Part shown: piece by piece, positions 7,441-30,647 of the stretch | Layout of the letters: each line of letters opens with the position of its first letter | Numbering within the stretch: the stretch's first letter is position 1 | IMG/VR virus record: IMGVR_UViG_3300038652_000297 | Coordinates: 8,598 to 41,478 of that record | DNA: 32,881 bases | From: a virus | Reading direction: 5' to 3' (one strand) | Program-made: the position numbers and the translations under genes | Notes under the pieces: generated by a model | The model's database searches: none | Told to the model about the DNA's origin: nothing | The model's input: only the letters and a program-made list of their open reading frames with translations

Positions 7441-7463
7441 AATTTGACACTCCTCGGGGCAAG
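7441..7463 (-). repeat. GC-rich 23-bp dispersed repeat, copy 1
   Basis: A GC-rich block (core ctcctcggggcaag on the plus strand) in otherwise AT-rich DNA, 23 nt downstream of the truncated recombinase. It matches 30625-30647 at 22 of 23 positions in the same orientation. Here it can also fold (CCTCG with CGAGG, 7452-7456 and 7468-7472). Possibly the end of a mobile element; see the findings. Confidence 0.75.
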
Positions 7464-7486: not shown

Positions 7487-7990
7487 TTAATTTCTATCAC
7501 CTTTACCATGTCTTACTTTGATTTCTCTATCATGAAAATCAATATCTTTCCAATCAAGATCTGCAAATTCACTTACCCTTAATCCACTACTAAGAAATAA
7601 TTCAAACATAGTAATATCAAATAAATCATTAATATCTAATCTAATTAATTCTACTTTTTCTGGTTTCAAATGACGTCTTACATTATCATTAATATGTGGT
7701 TTTTGTATTCTTTTAGCTGGATTTTCTTTAATATATTTTTCTTCTTTTAACCATTTATAAAAAGTTTTTATTATAGTTATTTTATTTTTAAGAGTTGATT
7801 TTTTAACAGTTTTTTTCTTTTCTCTTAAATAAGAACGAATATCTTTAATTTTAATTTCGTCAAATTTTTTATTCTCAAAAAAATTATAAAATTCATTGAA
7901 AGCATAGCCATAATTAGTAATTGTTAATTGACTATGCCCTCTTAATTCAAATAAAGAGAAATATTCTTCTAATACTTCTGTATTATTCAT
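7487..7990 (-). pseudogene. Tyrosine recombinase, truncated after the first catalytic Arg
   Basis: 167 aa. Residues 1-95 are a SAM-like core-binding domain (TITNYGYAFNEFYNFF, TLKNKITIIKTFYKWLKEE). The catalytic domain begins with SSGLRVSEFADLDW (Arg138, box I) and the beta-hairpin Lys in RHGKGDRN. It then stops at a TAA exactly where families normally continue toward the H-x-x-R and Tyr motifs; those residues are absent from the window. About half of a typical 300-aa enzyme is missing, so it cannot catalyse recombination alone. The break is next to the GC-rich repeat. It lies between the DGR and tail genes, an unusual place for an integrase. Confidence 0.8.
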
Positions 7991-8137: not shown

Positions 8138-8359
8138 TTAGAACATTTCTCCTTCCGTTTCTGAGTTATCTTGAACCACTTCCTTAACCTCAACTTCAAC
8201 AAATATATAATCTTCCTTTTCTATAAAATTGCTTTCAAAAATTGCTTCATTAATCTGGTCGAATTCAGGAATATCATCATATATAATAACTTTTGCTCCT
8301 GGTGTATCTTCAGTTGTTTTCTTGAGCTTTCCGTTTTCTATAATTCCGAACTTTTGCAT
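8138..8359 (-). CDS. Small acidic hypothetical protein overlapping the RT gene
   Basis: 73 aa from ATG 8359, preceded by AAGGTGGTGAG; an upstream GTG lies inside that site. The first 50 nt overlap the 3' end of the reverse transcriptase gene in another frame. It is strongly acidic, with a strand-helix pattern (AKVIIYDDIPEFDQINEAI, EDYIFVEVEVKEV). It resembles small proteins that follow tail-fibre genes. It is not basic or helical enough to be the DGR accessory protein Avd. Confidence 0.6.
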   Translation of the reverse strand: MQKFGIIENGKLKKTTEDTPGAKVIIYDDIPEFDQINEAIFESNFIEKEDYIFVEVEVKEVVQDNSETEGEMF

Positions 8360-9389
8360 GAGCACTCACCACCTTTTTAGCTTTCCATAGACTGACTTTA
8401 GGTTTCATATATTTGTGATAGAAATTATAACTATCGCATCTTTTAATCCAACCCCAATAAGAAATTATTGCACACGCGTCTTTATAATTTAGATTTTTCT
8501 TTTTACTTATTTTATTAAATCTTCTTCTAATTCTAAGTGCATTTCTTTTTCTGAGTATAGTTTTGTTGCGGAAAAATCTAAACCCAAGAAAATCTATCGC
8601 TCTACAATTAATCTTAAAAACTTGCCAATCACCTTTTATTTTTAATTTTATTTTTTTGAGATAAATATCAATTTTTCTTTTAGCTTTGTGTAATTTCTTT
8701 TTGTTGGCTCCTAATAGAACTAAATCATCAACATATCTAATGTAATATTTTATCTTTAATTTTTCTTTAATATAATGGTCTAACCCTTCTAAAAAGAAAT
8801 TGGAAAACCATTGGCTTGTATAATTACCGATTGGCAAGCCTTTGGCACTGTCTATAATACTATCGATTAACCAAAGGCAATCTTTATCTTTAATTTTTCT
8901 TCTGAACATTTCTTTTAAAATTTTATTATTAATTGAAGGATAAAACTTTTTTATATCCATTTTTAAACAATATTTTGTATTTATATAATCTCTGTCTATC
9001 CATTTCCTTAAAGTTTTTTGCCCTAAATTAGTACCTCTACCTGGCACACTTCCACAAGTATAATAATACATGCCCCTCATGATTATATGCTGAATCTGTT
9101 GCATTAAAGCCCAATGTATTATCTGGTCTGAAAAATATTTTGGCTTGTAAATATTTCTGGTTTTATTGTTTGCTCCGTCTTTAATCTCTTTTATAATATA
9201 TGGCGAAGGTTCATAAGTTTTATTTCTTAGCATATTTTTTATTTTTTCCCCATAAAAATTTATATTGTTTAATATTTTTTTAACTCTGTTTTGATTTCTC
9301 TTTTCTTTAGAAGAATTCATTACTGCAGCTTTTATATTCTCTATATCGTATATTTTGCTATAAATATAACCTTCTCTTTTCAAAATCAT
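8310..9389 (-). CDS. DGR reverse transcriptase
   Basis: A 359-aa error-prone reverse transcriptase that copies the template-repeat RNA and drives mutagenic homing into the variable gene. Visible motifs: MDIKKFYPSI (144-153, catalytic Asp), GLPIGNYTSQWFSNFFLEGLD (184-204) and RYVDDLVLLG (218-227) with the YVDD active site at 219-222. LPIGNYTSQ is typical of the DGR/retron-group enzymes, where retroviral RTs have LPQG. The C-terminus is very basic, as expected for RNA binding. The start is ATG at 9389. The TR lies 141 nt upstream. The length is typical of DGR RTs, and all catalytic residues seen are intact. Confidence 0.95.
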   Translation of the reverse strand: MILKREGYIYSKIYDIENIKAAVMNSSKEKRNQNRVKKILNNINFYGEKIKNMLRNKTYEPSPYIIKEIKDGANNKTRNIYKPKYFSDQIIHWALMQQIQHIIMRGMYYYTCGSVPGRGTNLGQKTLRKWIDRDYINTKYCLKMDIKKFYPSINNKILKEMFRRKIKDKDCLWLIDSIIDSAKGLPIGNYTSQWFSNFFLEGLDHYIKEKLKIKYYIRYVDDLVLLGANKKKLHKAKRKIDIYLKKIKLKIKGDWQVFKINCRAIDFLGFRFFRNKTILRKRNALRIRRRFNKISKKKNLNYKDACAIISYWGWIKRCDSYNFYHKYMKPKVSLWKAKKVVSAHAKVRNYRKRKAQENN

Positions 9390-9530
9390 AAATCCTTTCT
9401 ATTATTTCTTATTAACCTCAAGGTTTTTCGACTCAATGCTACTAGACCTTGCTCTATACGGTTTAATTTTCACCAAGCGGTGTGGAATATAAGATGCTAG
9501 AAAAACTTTTTATCTTCTTTTAATAAGAGT
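9390..9530 (-). ncRNA. Spacer between TR and RT, probably part of the DGR template RNA
   Basis: 141 nt without an ORF and more GC-rich than the phage average. It can fold: caaggt (9419-9424) pairs with accttg (9446-9451), and cacc (9471-9474) with ggtg (9479-9482). In the Bordetella phage DGR, the RNA downstream of TR, up to the RT gene, is needed for cDNA priming. I infer the same role here from position. Confidence 0.55.
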
Positions 9531-9634
9531 CTGCCTACCAAGGTTCGAGTTCGAATTCCCAGACGAATTGTTCAAGTTCCAGTTAGACAACCCATCATTC
9601 GAGCCGTTATTCCAGTTACCACCAAACTGAGCAA
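9531..9634 (-). repeat. DGR template repeat (TR)
   Basis: 104 bp, aligned without gaps to VR at an offset of 209. On the coding sense it is rich in AAC/AAT codons and would read QFGGNWNNGSNDGLSNWN and onward: the usual Asn-rich pattern that lets A-to-N mutation reach many residues without creating stop codons. It lies outside any protein gene, between the variable protein and RT. Of 26 adenines on this strand, 16 differ in VR; no other base differs. Confidence 0.96.
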
Positions 9635-9688
9635 GCACGCACCCTATACCCCCTAAATCTTTAAAAAACATAAAACATTAAAAACATT

Positions 9689-9708
9689 TTTGGGGGTAGA
9701 CCCCCAAA
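9689..9708 (-). other. DGR target-associated hairpin/cruciform
   Basis: A perfect 8-bp stem (TTTGGGGG 9689-9696 with CCCCCAAA 9701-9708) and a 4-nt loop, starting about 31 bp beyond the 3' end of VR and just after the variable-protein stop. In the Bordetella phage DGR, a 7-10 bp stem with a 4-nt loop downstream of VR promotes target recognition, and size and position match. It could also act as a transcription terminator, but the following T-run is interrupted. Confidence 0.75.
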
Positions 9709-9712
9709 CCCC

Positions 9713-11062
9713 CTAAAAAGATAGAGGTTTCTTAAGAAGCCGCCCACCAAGGTACGAGTACGAAGTCCCAGACGAATAGTACAAGGACCAGCGAGACAAC
9801 CCAACACTCGAGCCGTAATACCAGTTACCACCAAACCGAGCAATTCTTTGACCGTTTGTTTCATAATAATAATCACTATAGTAAGTTGATGAGCTTCCTC
9901 CTATTTCTACAGCTAGTTCCACAAACGGATATTCAGAATCAAAACCCATTTCTGTTACATATCCACTATCATTATGATTAAGATATCCGATTTGTTCATA
10001 AGGAGAAGCGAATACATTACTTGCATAATTTTGAGCATTTTCACATACCCATGTTTGCCAGTCATTGATATTAATACCGTCGACAAACTGCCAGATATCT
10101 CCGAATGGACTTTCTATCCCTCTGTAACTGCAAGGAAATTTTCCACTTGAATTACTACTTATACTACCGGATGTCGCCAAAATATTAGCTGAAAATCCAT
10201 TTTTCCATCCTGTATTATACACTACATCATCTATCGCAATATCTACAGAGTCTCCATCGAAAACGATAGCAGATTGTCCTGCAGAAGGTGTGTCAACTTG
10301 TATATCTGTAATGTCACGACCGTAAAAAACACTATTATTTCCACGACTAGAACCAACAGAAATTGGTTGACCAATCTCGTAATTGTCTGCAACACTGTTA
10401 TCGACAACTATACGATTAACACCTGTTTCTGATATTAATGCTGTGTGACTATCCCTATATTCTCCTTCGCTGAATCCTTTCATAATCGTTTGTATATTAA
10501 GTGTTGCGAATTCAATTATCATTAATGTTCTAATTACATCTACAGCATGTACATCTAATTGCTGATAACCTGCTCCGTTATTTTCTGCATAAGTTCTCAT
10601 GTCAACTATATTTTCATCAACTAAAGGATATTTATCGGTTATTGATTGTAATTTATTGTCTCCATCTTTTGTTGCTTTGTGTTTCGCAAAGTCAAAATAA
10701 GGTAGTTCTCTATCATTATCAAAATCCCAAAAAACTTTTGGAAGATAATATCCGTCATATTGTACTTTTGAAACTCTCCAGGTTCGATAATTTTCGGCAA
10801 CTTCTTTTTTAATATAGAATTTTGGAATACGTATGAAAGTATTTCCTAACGAGTCTGTGACTTCTTCCATTTCGCCCCAAATCGGAAGATTATCAAAATC
10901 ATTAAGAACTAGCTGCGAATCTAATCCTACATTGGCATTTTTGCCAATTGCGTCATCTGTTCTGGTGAGAACAGGGTCAGAATCTCTATCCCAATACACA
11001 CCGAATACTCTACTATCCTGCACATATTTTTTCAGTCTTCTAGCTTGGAATAAATTACTCAT
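9713..11062 (-). CDS. DGR variable protein, C-type-lectin-fold tail/receptor-binding protein
   Basis: 449 aa. The N-terminus (FGVYWDRDSDPVLTRTDDAIG) is of the type found on phage tail and adhesin proteins. From about residue 310 a formylglycine-enzyme-like C-type-lectin domain appears (CSYRGIESPFGDIWQFVDGI), ending in GGNWYYGSSVGLSRW and GGRLLKKPLSF. Residues 408-441 are the VR; 14 codons differ from TR, giving Tyr, Ser, Arg, Thr and Val where TR encodes Asn or Asp. The ATG is 1 nt after the upstream stop. Base composition is clearly more GC-rich than its neighbours. Displayed lectin domains of this sort bind host receptors, which is the inferred role. Confidence 0.93.
   Translation of the reverse strand: MSNLFQARRLKKYVQDSRVFGVYWDRDSDPVLTRTDDAIGKNANVGLDSQLVLNDFDNLPIWGEMEEVTDSLGNTFIRIPKFYIKKEVAENYRTWRVSKVQYDGYYLPKVFWDFDNDRELPYFDFAKHKATKDGDNKLQSITDKYPLVDENIVDMRTYAENNGAGYQQLDVHAVDVIRTLMIIEFATLNIQTIMKGFSEGEYRDSHTALISETGVNRIVVDNSVADNYEIGQPISVGSSRGNNSVFYGRDITDIQVDTPSAGQSAIVFDGDSVDIAIDDVVYNTGWKNGFSANILATSGSISSNSSGKFPCSYRGIESPFGDIWQFVDGININDWQTWVCENAQNYASNVFASPYEQIGYLNHNDSGYVTEMGFDSEYPFVELAVEIGGSSSTYYSDYYYETNGQRIARFGGNWYYGSSVGLSRWSLYYSSGTSYSYLGGRLLKKPLSF
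9740..9843 (-). repeat. DGR variable repeat (VR)
   Basis: The 3' end of the variable-protein gene, 24 bp before its stop codon. All 16 mismatches to TR are at TR adenines (A to T, C or G). The mismatches extend to the last adenines at the 3' border (AGG to GGG and CAG to CGG), so the invariant part of the homing site there is short, around CCTTGGT. Confidence 0.96.
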
Positions 11063-23408: not shown

Positions 23409-24525
23409 TTAATTACCTCCTAATTTTTCTCTATATATTTTACCAAGTTTAGCAGTTTCACTTCTCATTATTTCATTTAATAATATACTACCTGTTAATT
23501 TTTGATTTTTCAAATAATTTATTAAACAAGTTAAACCATTATAATTTTTACTTAATTTTTTATTATTAATTTGTTCTATATCACCTTCAAATATAACTTT
23601 AGCATTTTTATCTATGTATTCAATAAAACAATCCATATCATTAGGATGTATATTCTGTGCTTCTGTTACTAATAATATAGAATTATCAATATTTCTATCT
23701 TGTATCAATGATAAACCTTCAACTTCAAAATTCAACATTGTTTATTCTTTAATATTATCCCAATAAGGTTGTAAAAAAGGATTAAGTTTTTCTGATAAAG
23801 TTCCAGGGAAACTACCAAACTTTTCTTCTTTAAAACCTTTTTGTATTTTAGGTCTTGTTAATATTATTTTATCATATTGCCCTCTTTTAACTTGTTTTAT
23901 AGCACTATTAATTGCTAAACTAGTTTTACCTGAACCTGCACCTCCAATAATACTTACAACTGTAACTTTTTTATCAAATAATAAATTAGATAACATTATT
24001 TGTTTTCTATTTAATTTACCTACACCTTCCATGTTATTATTCCATTTTATTTTATGTAAAAAACCTTCTTTATATCTACAAATCATATTTTCACTATCAA
24101 TAAATTGATTCTCATATAAATCCATATTTGTTTTTATTTTATCTTTATTATATAATCTATCAATCATTTTAGGATCTAATTCTTTTTTAATTAAACCTTC
24201 ATACAAACTTTGTTTATCTTTTGTATAATAAAAAATATTACTTTTTCTAGACTTACCTTTTAAAAATAATGCAGCATTTTTAGTAAAAACTTTATATTTT
24301 TTATACCTAACTGAATTAATTTTTCATCATTAGTATCTCCACTCACTTTCATATTCTTACATTTTATATCATTATTTAATATATTTTTAATAGTTTGTCT
24401 AGCACCATATAAATCATTTTTATTATTTTCTAACTCATCTAAATAAAATAAGGGATTACACAATCTGATTTTAATAAGATATCTGGTTCATCTATTAATA
24501 TATTAGTATCATATATTTGTTGCAA
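23409..24525 (-). pseudogene. PIN-PhoH family ATPase, broken by two frameshifts and one stop
   Basis: Conceptually 372 aa from TTG 24525 (GGGGAATAAAA upstream). The PIN domain (IYDTNILIDEPDILLKSDCV then YLDELENNKNDLYGARQTIK) is interrupted by one missing T near 24441-24443. One A is missing from the A-run at 24297-24302, before VFTKNAALFLKGKSR. The ATPase has Walker A SIIGGAGSGKTS and SFPGTLSEKLNPFLQPYWDN. An in-frame TAA at 23742-23744 then precedes FEVEGLSLIQDRN and the Walker B-like ILLVTEAQNI. The two lost bases restore exactly one frame. PhoH-like proteins are RNA-linked ATPases of unclear phage role. Either real decay or assembly error. Confidence 0.8.
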
Positions 24526-30624: not shown

Positions 30625-30647
30625 AATTTGACCCTCCTCGGGGCAAG
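30625..30647 (-). repeat. GC-rich 23-bp dispersed repeat, copy 2
   Basis: Differs from 7441-7463 at one position (C for A) and has the same orientation. It lies 44 nt downstream of the RNA ligase stop, in a 132-bp gap with no supported gene. The sequence beside it (AAACC..ACGAGC) is only partly conserved between copies. Confidence 0.75.

Follow-up and report, generated by a model that had tools for sequence, protein, structure and literature searches.

The cassette and its parts

The window, by which we mean the whole stretch of 32,881 nucleotides that was analysed, comprises bases 8598-41478 of a 41,478-base IMG/VR virus record and has a G+C content of 25%. On its minus strand a gene for a variable (target) protein (VP), a variable repeat (VR) that is 3'-terminal in this gene, a hairpin, a template repeat (TR), a structured spacer and a gene for a reverse transcriptase (RT) follow one another in that order. 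A preliminary description had proposed a complete diversity-generating retroelement (DGR) with its parts in canonical order, and every part that it named is found, in the sequence in which it named them. We are almost certain that the cassette is a complete, Avd-less DGR of a tailed phage, the host of which is probably a member of the Bacillota. DGRs from IMG data have been catalogued in large surveys (e.g., PMC8144416).

The VP gene (9713-11062, minus strand) is an open reading frame of 449 aa that encodes a protein of the tail collar fibre type, the variable domain being C-terminal. Its sequence matches the tail protein phrog_5302 (1.2e-56) and has no match in the PDB. An AF2 model built from an alignment of 27 sequences has a pLDDT of 76 and a pTM of 0.78, and was used in place of a single-sequence model (pLDDT 32), which was discarded. 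When the model is compared with the PDB by Foldseek, the only chains found at E<=0.001 are three from TaqVP (5vf4), the variable protein of a Thermus DGR, at 1e-8, and in BFVD the model matches a tail collar fibre at 2e-32. TaqVP (PMC6328139) is the sole solved family that matches the model, but its identity to the window VP is 12%, the TM-score is a modest 0.40-0.47, and the variable segment of the window protein is modelled poorly. The target gene, which has VR at its 3' end, is predicted to finish in a variable domain of the C-type lectin type, the fold around VR being of low confidence (pLDDT < 50 for residues 411-435).

TR (9524-9634, minus strand) and VR (9733-9843, minus strand) form a 111-nt repeat pair, 209 nt apart, and VR ends 20 nt short of the end of the VP gene. 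An adenine-biased scan of the rest of the window gave no comparable repeat pair, and a search of the 41.5-kb record for a second VR belonging to this TR gave none, so that the element has a single VR. In several relatives (L057, L061, L062, L063 and L066-L070), two A-biased VRs, which derive from duplicated target genes, are served by one TR. The last approximately 12 nt of VR (9733-9744, GGCGGCTTCTTA) are IMH-like and the 3' end of TR (9524-9535, GGCAGACTCTTA) is IMH*-like; here GGCTTCTTA in VR is opposed by AGACTCTTA in TR, a difference that is fixed in the window and in most close relatives. This fixed difference at the 3' ends is as expected for IMH and IMH*.

Just past the VP stop codon, starting 4 nt after it and 24 nt after VR, lies the target hairpin, or cruciform (9689-9708, minus strand), TTTGGGGG-TCTA-CCCCCAAA, with a stem of 8 bp, five of them G-C pairs, and a loop of 4 nt. 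Counting the window, 18 of 24 loci have a stem of at least 7 bp after VR, where 0.025 per sequence are expected after shuffling. DGR hairpins are GC-rich, have 7-10 bp and a 4-nt loop and lie downstream of VR, and the stem and loop size seen here fit this description. In BPP-1, the stem shape and the 4-nt loop matter, and the loop consensus GRNA is critical (PMC3240598). This consensus refines the description of the hairpin and does not define it; the window loop TCTA does not fit it, and on the sense strand neither does any of the loci with a 4-nt loop. From this follows that the loop rule does not hold in the clade of the window element.

The RT gene (8310-9389, minus strand) encodes 359 aa with a YVDD active site and the DGR-type motif IGNYTSQ, and the reverse transcriptase is intact, as the preliminary description had it. 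With the DGR of the Bordetella phage BPP-1 (mtd-avd-TR-brt) the cassette shares the RT family, the A-specific difference between TR and VR, the position of VR at the 3' end of a tail gene, the 8-bp GC-rich hairpin with a 4-nt loop after VR, and a spacer between TR and RT. The two differ in that BPP-1 has avd between VR and TR, where the window has none, and in the hairpin loop, which is GAAA in BPP-1 (PMC3240598) and TCTA here.

Adenine-directed variation in the window and its relatives

Consider the 99-nt core of the repeat pair (TR 9536-9634), which has 25 adenines in TR. TR and VR differ here at 15 positions, all of which are TR adenines (A>T 8, A>G 4, A>C 3), and the chance of this outcome when mismatches are placed at random is 1.5e-11. 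Over the full 111 nt, 17 of 18 mismatches are at TR adenines. When TR is read in the frame of the target gene it gives AQFGGNWNNGSNDGLSNWNLNNSSGNSNSNLG, which is rich in Asn, while VR gives ARFGGNWYYGSSVGLSRWSLYYSSGTSYSYLG. The 25 core adenines are all at the first or second position of a VP codon and none is at the third, which means that nearly every adenine change is able to alter the protein.

An A-biased TR/VR pair adjoins the RT gene in nearly all relatives for which there is enough upstream sequence. At locus L010, the RT of which is 61% identical to that of the window, no TR/VR pair was found, and the residues at the end of VP resemble an unmutated template (LNNSSGNANANIGARLL).

Relatives were gathered by RT similarity, and those compared for changes in VR have RTs that are 64-66% identical to the window RT. 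Loci L008 and L009, which come from different metagenomes, have 20 differences in VR, all at TR adenines, and agree throughout 800 nt of VP, 901 nt of RT, TR, the gap between VR and TR, and the spacer. Among L014, L015 and L016 the VRs differ at 5, 18 and 19 positions, of which 5, 17 and 18 are TR adenines, with zero or one difference elsewhere. VR changes of which all or all but one are at TR adenines, in relatives that are otherwise near-identical, mean that close kin of the window element are active. In several other near-identical groups the VRs are identical, and from this follows that diversification is not constant. When viral contigs were searched with an A-masked TR pattern, no second copy of the window phage was found. 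The preliminary description had called the cassette apparently active and had named a VR identical in all relatives as the observation that would speak against it. In the groups L008/L009 and L014-L016 the VRs differ; for close relatives the activity therefore stands, while for the window phage itself it may be presumed by extension.

A DGR that had become a fossil, with its parts intact by sequence, its retrohoming lost and its VR frozen, would leave a single VR sequence, and one is all that is known for the window phage. It would also be in keeping with damaged neighbours, an integrase that is truncated and a PhoH gene that is split (see below), but such a fossil is hard to reconcile with close relatives that diversify, or with a TR/VR core without any non-A mismatch, as recent rewriting of VR would give. 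The hairpin loop departs from the BPP-1 consensus (PMC3240598), which could be read as decay, yet the hairpin itself, the RNA arms and the RT-18 RNA described below are intact, and RT and VP are both open and conserved. We consider the fossil unlikely, and judge the phage DGR to be genuine, complete and probably working.

The template RNA and the absence of Avd

No match to the Avd model PF22296 was found in the 41.5-kb record, which is possibly a fragment, while the Avd of BPP-1 was detected as a positive control; PF05635 is uninformative on this point, as it misses the BPP-1 protein as well. Neither between VP and RT nor in nearby small open reading frames is there an Avd, and the interval between VP and RT, in which TR directly precedes RT, leaves no room for it. 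About a quarter of DGRs are without an accessory-gene homolog (PMC7290462), and the cassette fits the Avd-less order target-VR-TR-RT given in that work, and is not of the BPP-1 type with Avd. The DGR of crAssphage LMMB has the same order of target gene, VR (IMH), TR (IMH*) and RT, without avd and with a tail-collar fibre as target (PMC7290462), so that the architecture of the window cassette is already known and published. Further, the RT of crAssphage LMMB falls in the same tree group as the window RT, and its TR/VR pair is found by the same scan, with 21 of 22 mismatches at A. The two elements differ in that the crAssphage RT is about 36% identical to that of the window, in that its phage is a crAss-like gut phage, and in that no clear helix enclosing TR was found there. 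The crAssphage LMMB element belongs to the 'lineage 3' DGRs of Wu et al., as these are cited in PMC7290462.

As a DGR, then, the cassette is ordinary, and its value lies in its RNA. What is added here is a finer RNA anatomy; of most use are the link between the DGR template spacer and the Rfam families RT-18 and RT-17, and a covarying helix that encloses TR.

The spacer between TR and RT matches the RT-18 RNA (Rfam RF03021) at 9405-9482 on the minus strand over the full length of the covariance model, with 67.2 bits in relation to a gathering score of 41.3, which bears out the structured spacer of the preliminary description. Of 14 relatives, 12 have RT-18 in the equivalent position, as do 3 of 14 loci in a second, more distant set; in four others of the distant set (L055, L060, L069 and L075) the spacer between TR and RT belongs to the sister family, RT-17 (RF03020). 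Every RT-18 or RT-17 match in the relatives sits between TR and RT. When the search was made in the opposite direction, starting from the RNA, RT-18 was found in 2 of 397 genomes of one order, one of which is an already known locus; in the other (G215) a TR/VR pair lies alongside, and 17 of its 18 mismatches are at A. An RNAalifold analysis of 25 spacers gave 15 pairs, 11 of which show compensatory changes. In Rfam the two families are named by RT neighbourhood only, whereas here they are placed as the DGR spacer between TR and RT, and the window spacer is a full-model member of RT-18.

The helix around TR has a 5' arm of 14 nt (GGGGTATAGGGTGC, 9639-9652, minus strand) just upstream of TR and a 3' arm of 14 nt (GCATCTTATATTCC, 9484-9497, minus strand) just before RT-18. 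For its evaluation each side was aligned separately by sequence, and partners were permuted between loci. Over 20 loci, 87.5% of the cells of the 14-bp helix are paired, and 10 of the 14 pairs show compensatory changes. None of 1000 row permutations gave a value as high, a result that is to be taken as support and not as a probability since the test keeps the relatedness among loci, and slid registers gave 36-57%. Among more distant relatives roughly every second locus has a similar helix (11 of 24 exceed the 95th percentile of shuffles), and in BPP-1 the same ungapped duplex scan gave no TR-enclosing helix above the shuffled level. For one of the conserved structures framing the template RNA, no description was found in the literature searched.

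On one reading, the template RNA of this Avd-less lineage is a conserved two-part scaffold, in which a long-range, covarying TR-enclosing helix like the a1/a2 pairing of retrons is combined with an RT-18 or RT-17 domain ahead of the RT, and this scaffold may take over work of Avd in BPP-1, for example to recruit the RT, to place the priming site and to stop the cDNA at the edge of TR. We hold this proposal to be evenly balanced between right and wrong. If it is right, RT-17 and RT-18 would be explained as DGR template-RNA spacers, the priority of this link being uncertain. The spacer RNA and the helix could instead act mainly on the DNA or on translation of the RT, for example as an RT leader, and not as part of a template RNA. 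In favour of such a role, a mere 15 nt separate RT-18 from the RT start codon, but the helix joins the two flanks of TR across TR itself, which a plain RT leader would not need, and in BPP-1 the spacer folds and recruits the RT-Avd complex (PMC12875486). We think it improbable that the main action of these elements is of this second kind.

The course of events that we infer for the window phage, its chemistry, priming, receptor role and present activity included, would be as follows. A single transcript would carry TR, the enclosing helix, the RT-18 RNA and the RT message. By analogy with BPP-1, the folded spacer RNA would be bound by the RT, and TR would be copied from its IMH* end with random bases placed opposite adenines. 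The cDNA would then, again if BPP-1 is a guide, take the place of VR in the terminal part of the VP gene, with the IMH-like 3' end directing the exchange and the downstream hairpin assisting it. The outcome would be a collar-fibre tip with varying exposed residues on a fixed scaffold, the likely purpose of which is altered host binding, provided that the fibre has the presumed role in receptor recognition.

Two named RNA families in this way gain a concrete and testable role. A compact Avd-less cassette, with covariation-backed elements at fixed places, is a simpler system in which to study how the template edge is chosen and how the cDNA is primed, and, if the helix replaces the functions of Avd, a DGR that needs only one protein could more easily be constructed for directed protein evolution.

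Reverse transcriptase, kinship and neighbouring genes

The RT matches phrog_1423 at 1.5e-106. Its best sequence match in the PDB is 8ub7 (1.1e-26), deposited as 'Reverse transcriptase', which we take to be the RT of BPP-1 in the DGR RT-Avd-RNA complex, whereas no group II RT comes nearer than 3e-14. In a maximum-likelihood tree 31 RTs, which include those of the window, BPP-1, crAssphage LMMB and relatives with TR/VR pairs, fall in one DGR group (97/97) that excludes four group II intron RTs and one retron-like RT. Long branches make the exact position of BPP-1 in this tree unsure and leave that of the window RT unaffected. A clustering with retrons or group II introns, the other outcome that the preliminary description had held to be damaging, is thus not what the tree gives. 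That the enzyme belongs with retron or group II RTs and happens to lie beside a repeat has virtually nothing left to recommend it. Its best NCBIfam matches are the group II RT and retron St85 models, and no DGR RT model is among the NCBIfam and Pfam matches, but these scores are far under the cut-offs (87.7 bits for a cut-off of 300, and 67.5 bits for one of 235) and reflect only the common RT fold. This identity is refuted by the position in the RT tree and by the A-only TR/VR difference that is conserved in relatives, with the best PDB match, 8ub7, on the same side.

The nearest named RTs are those of Alkalihalobacillus sp. BA299 and of a Bacillus MAG, at 66% identity, and these support the Bacillota host of the preliminary description. 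The terminase is at most 27% identical to those of named phages, many of the closest being from Bacillus phages, in agreement with the earlier statement that no described phage is close. By these comparisons a Bacillota host is likely, though not proven. The closest RT of a named phage is that of Lactobacillus phage LBR48, which is 53% identical, and the two phages have related VP N-termini. In LBR48 (L078/L130) the RT is intact, but no TR/VR pair was found across the record ends and VP is without the VR core. Ambiguous bases occur in this part of the record, and the missing pair may be a sequencing gap.

Outside the cassette there may be some decay in the genome, while RT and VP are themselves intact. 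A PhoH-like gene (23409-24206, minus strand) is interrupted at 23742-23744 by a single in-frame TAA, on either side of which the same frame is open, and the stop may be an error, the mark of a pseudogene or a site of readthrough. A recoded genetic code, a possibility raised by this stop, was rejected, since readthrough codes for TGA, TAG or TAA gave no coherent gain. A tyrosine recombinase (integrase) gene (7487-7990, minus strand) is truncated to 167 aa and ends beside sequence that resembles the end of a TnpB element, and it is possible that this is the scar of an insertion. At bases 600-1451 of the record (L092), the C-terminal part of a TnpB (250 aa) is followed by sequence like an omegaRNA and right end. 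The 14-mer CTCCTCGGGGCAAG from the end of the TnpB element recurs twice in the window, at 7450-7463 and 30634-30647, where none is expected by chance; the copies lie just past the truncated integrase and past an RNA ligase gene, and are like solo ends of TnpB elements.
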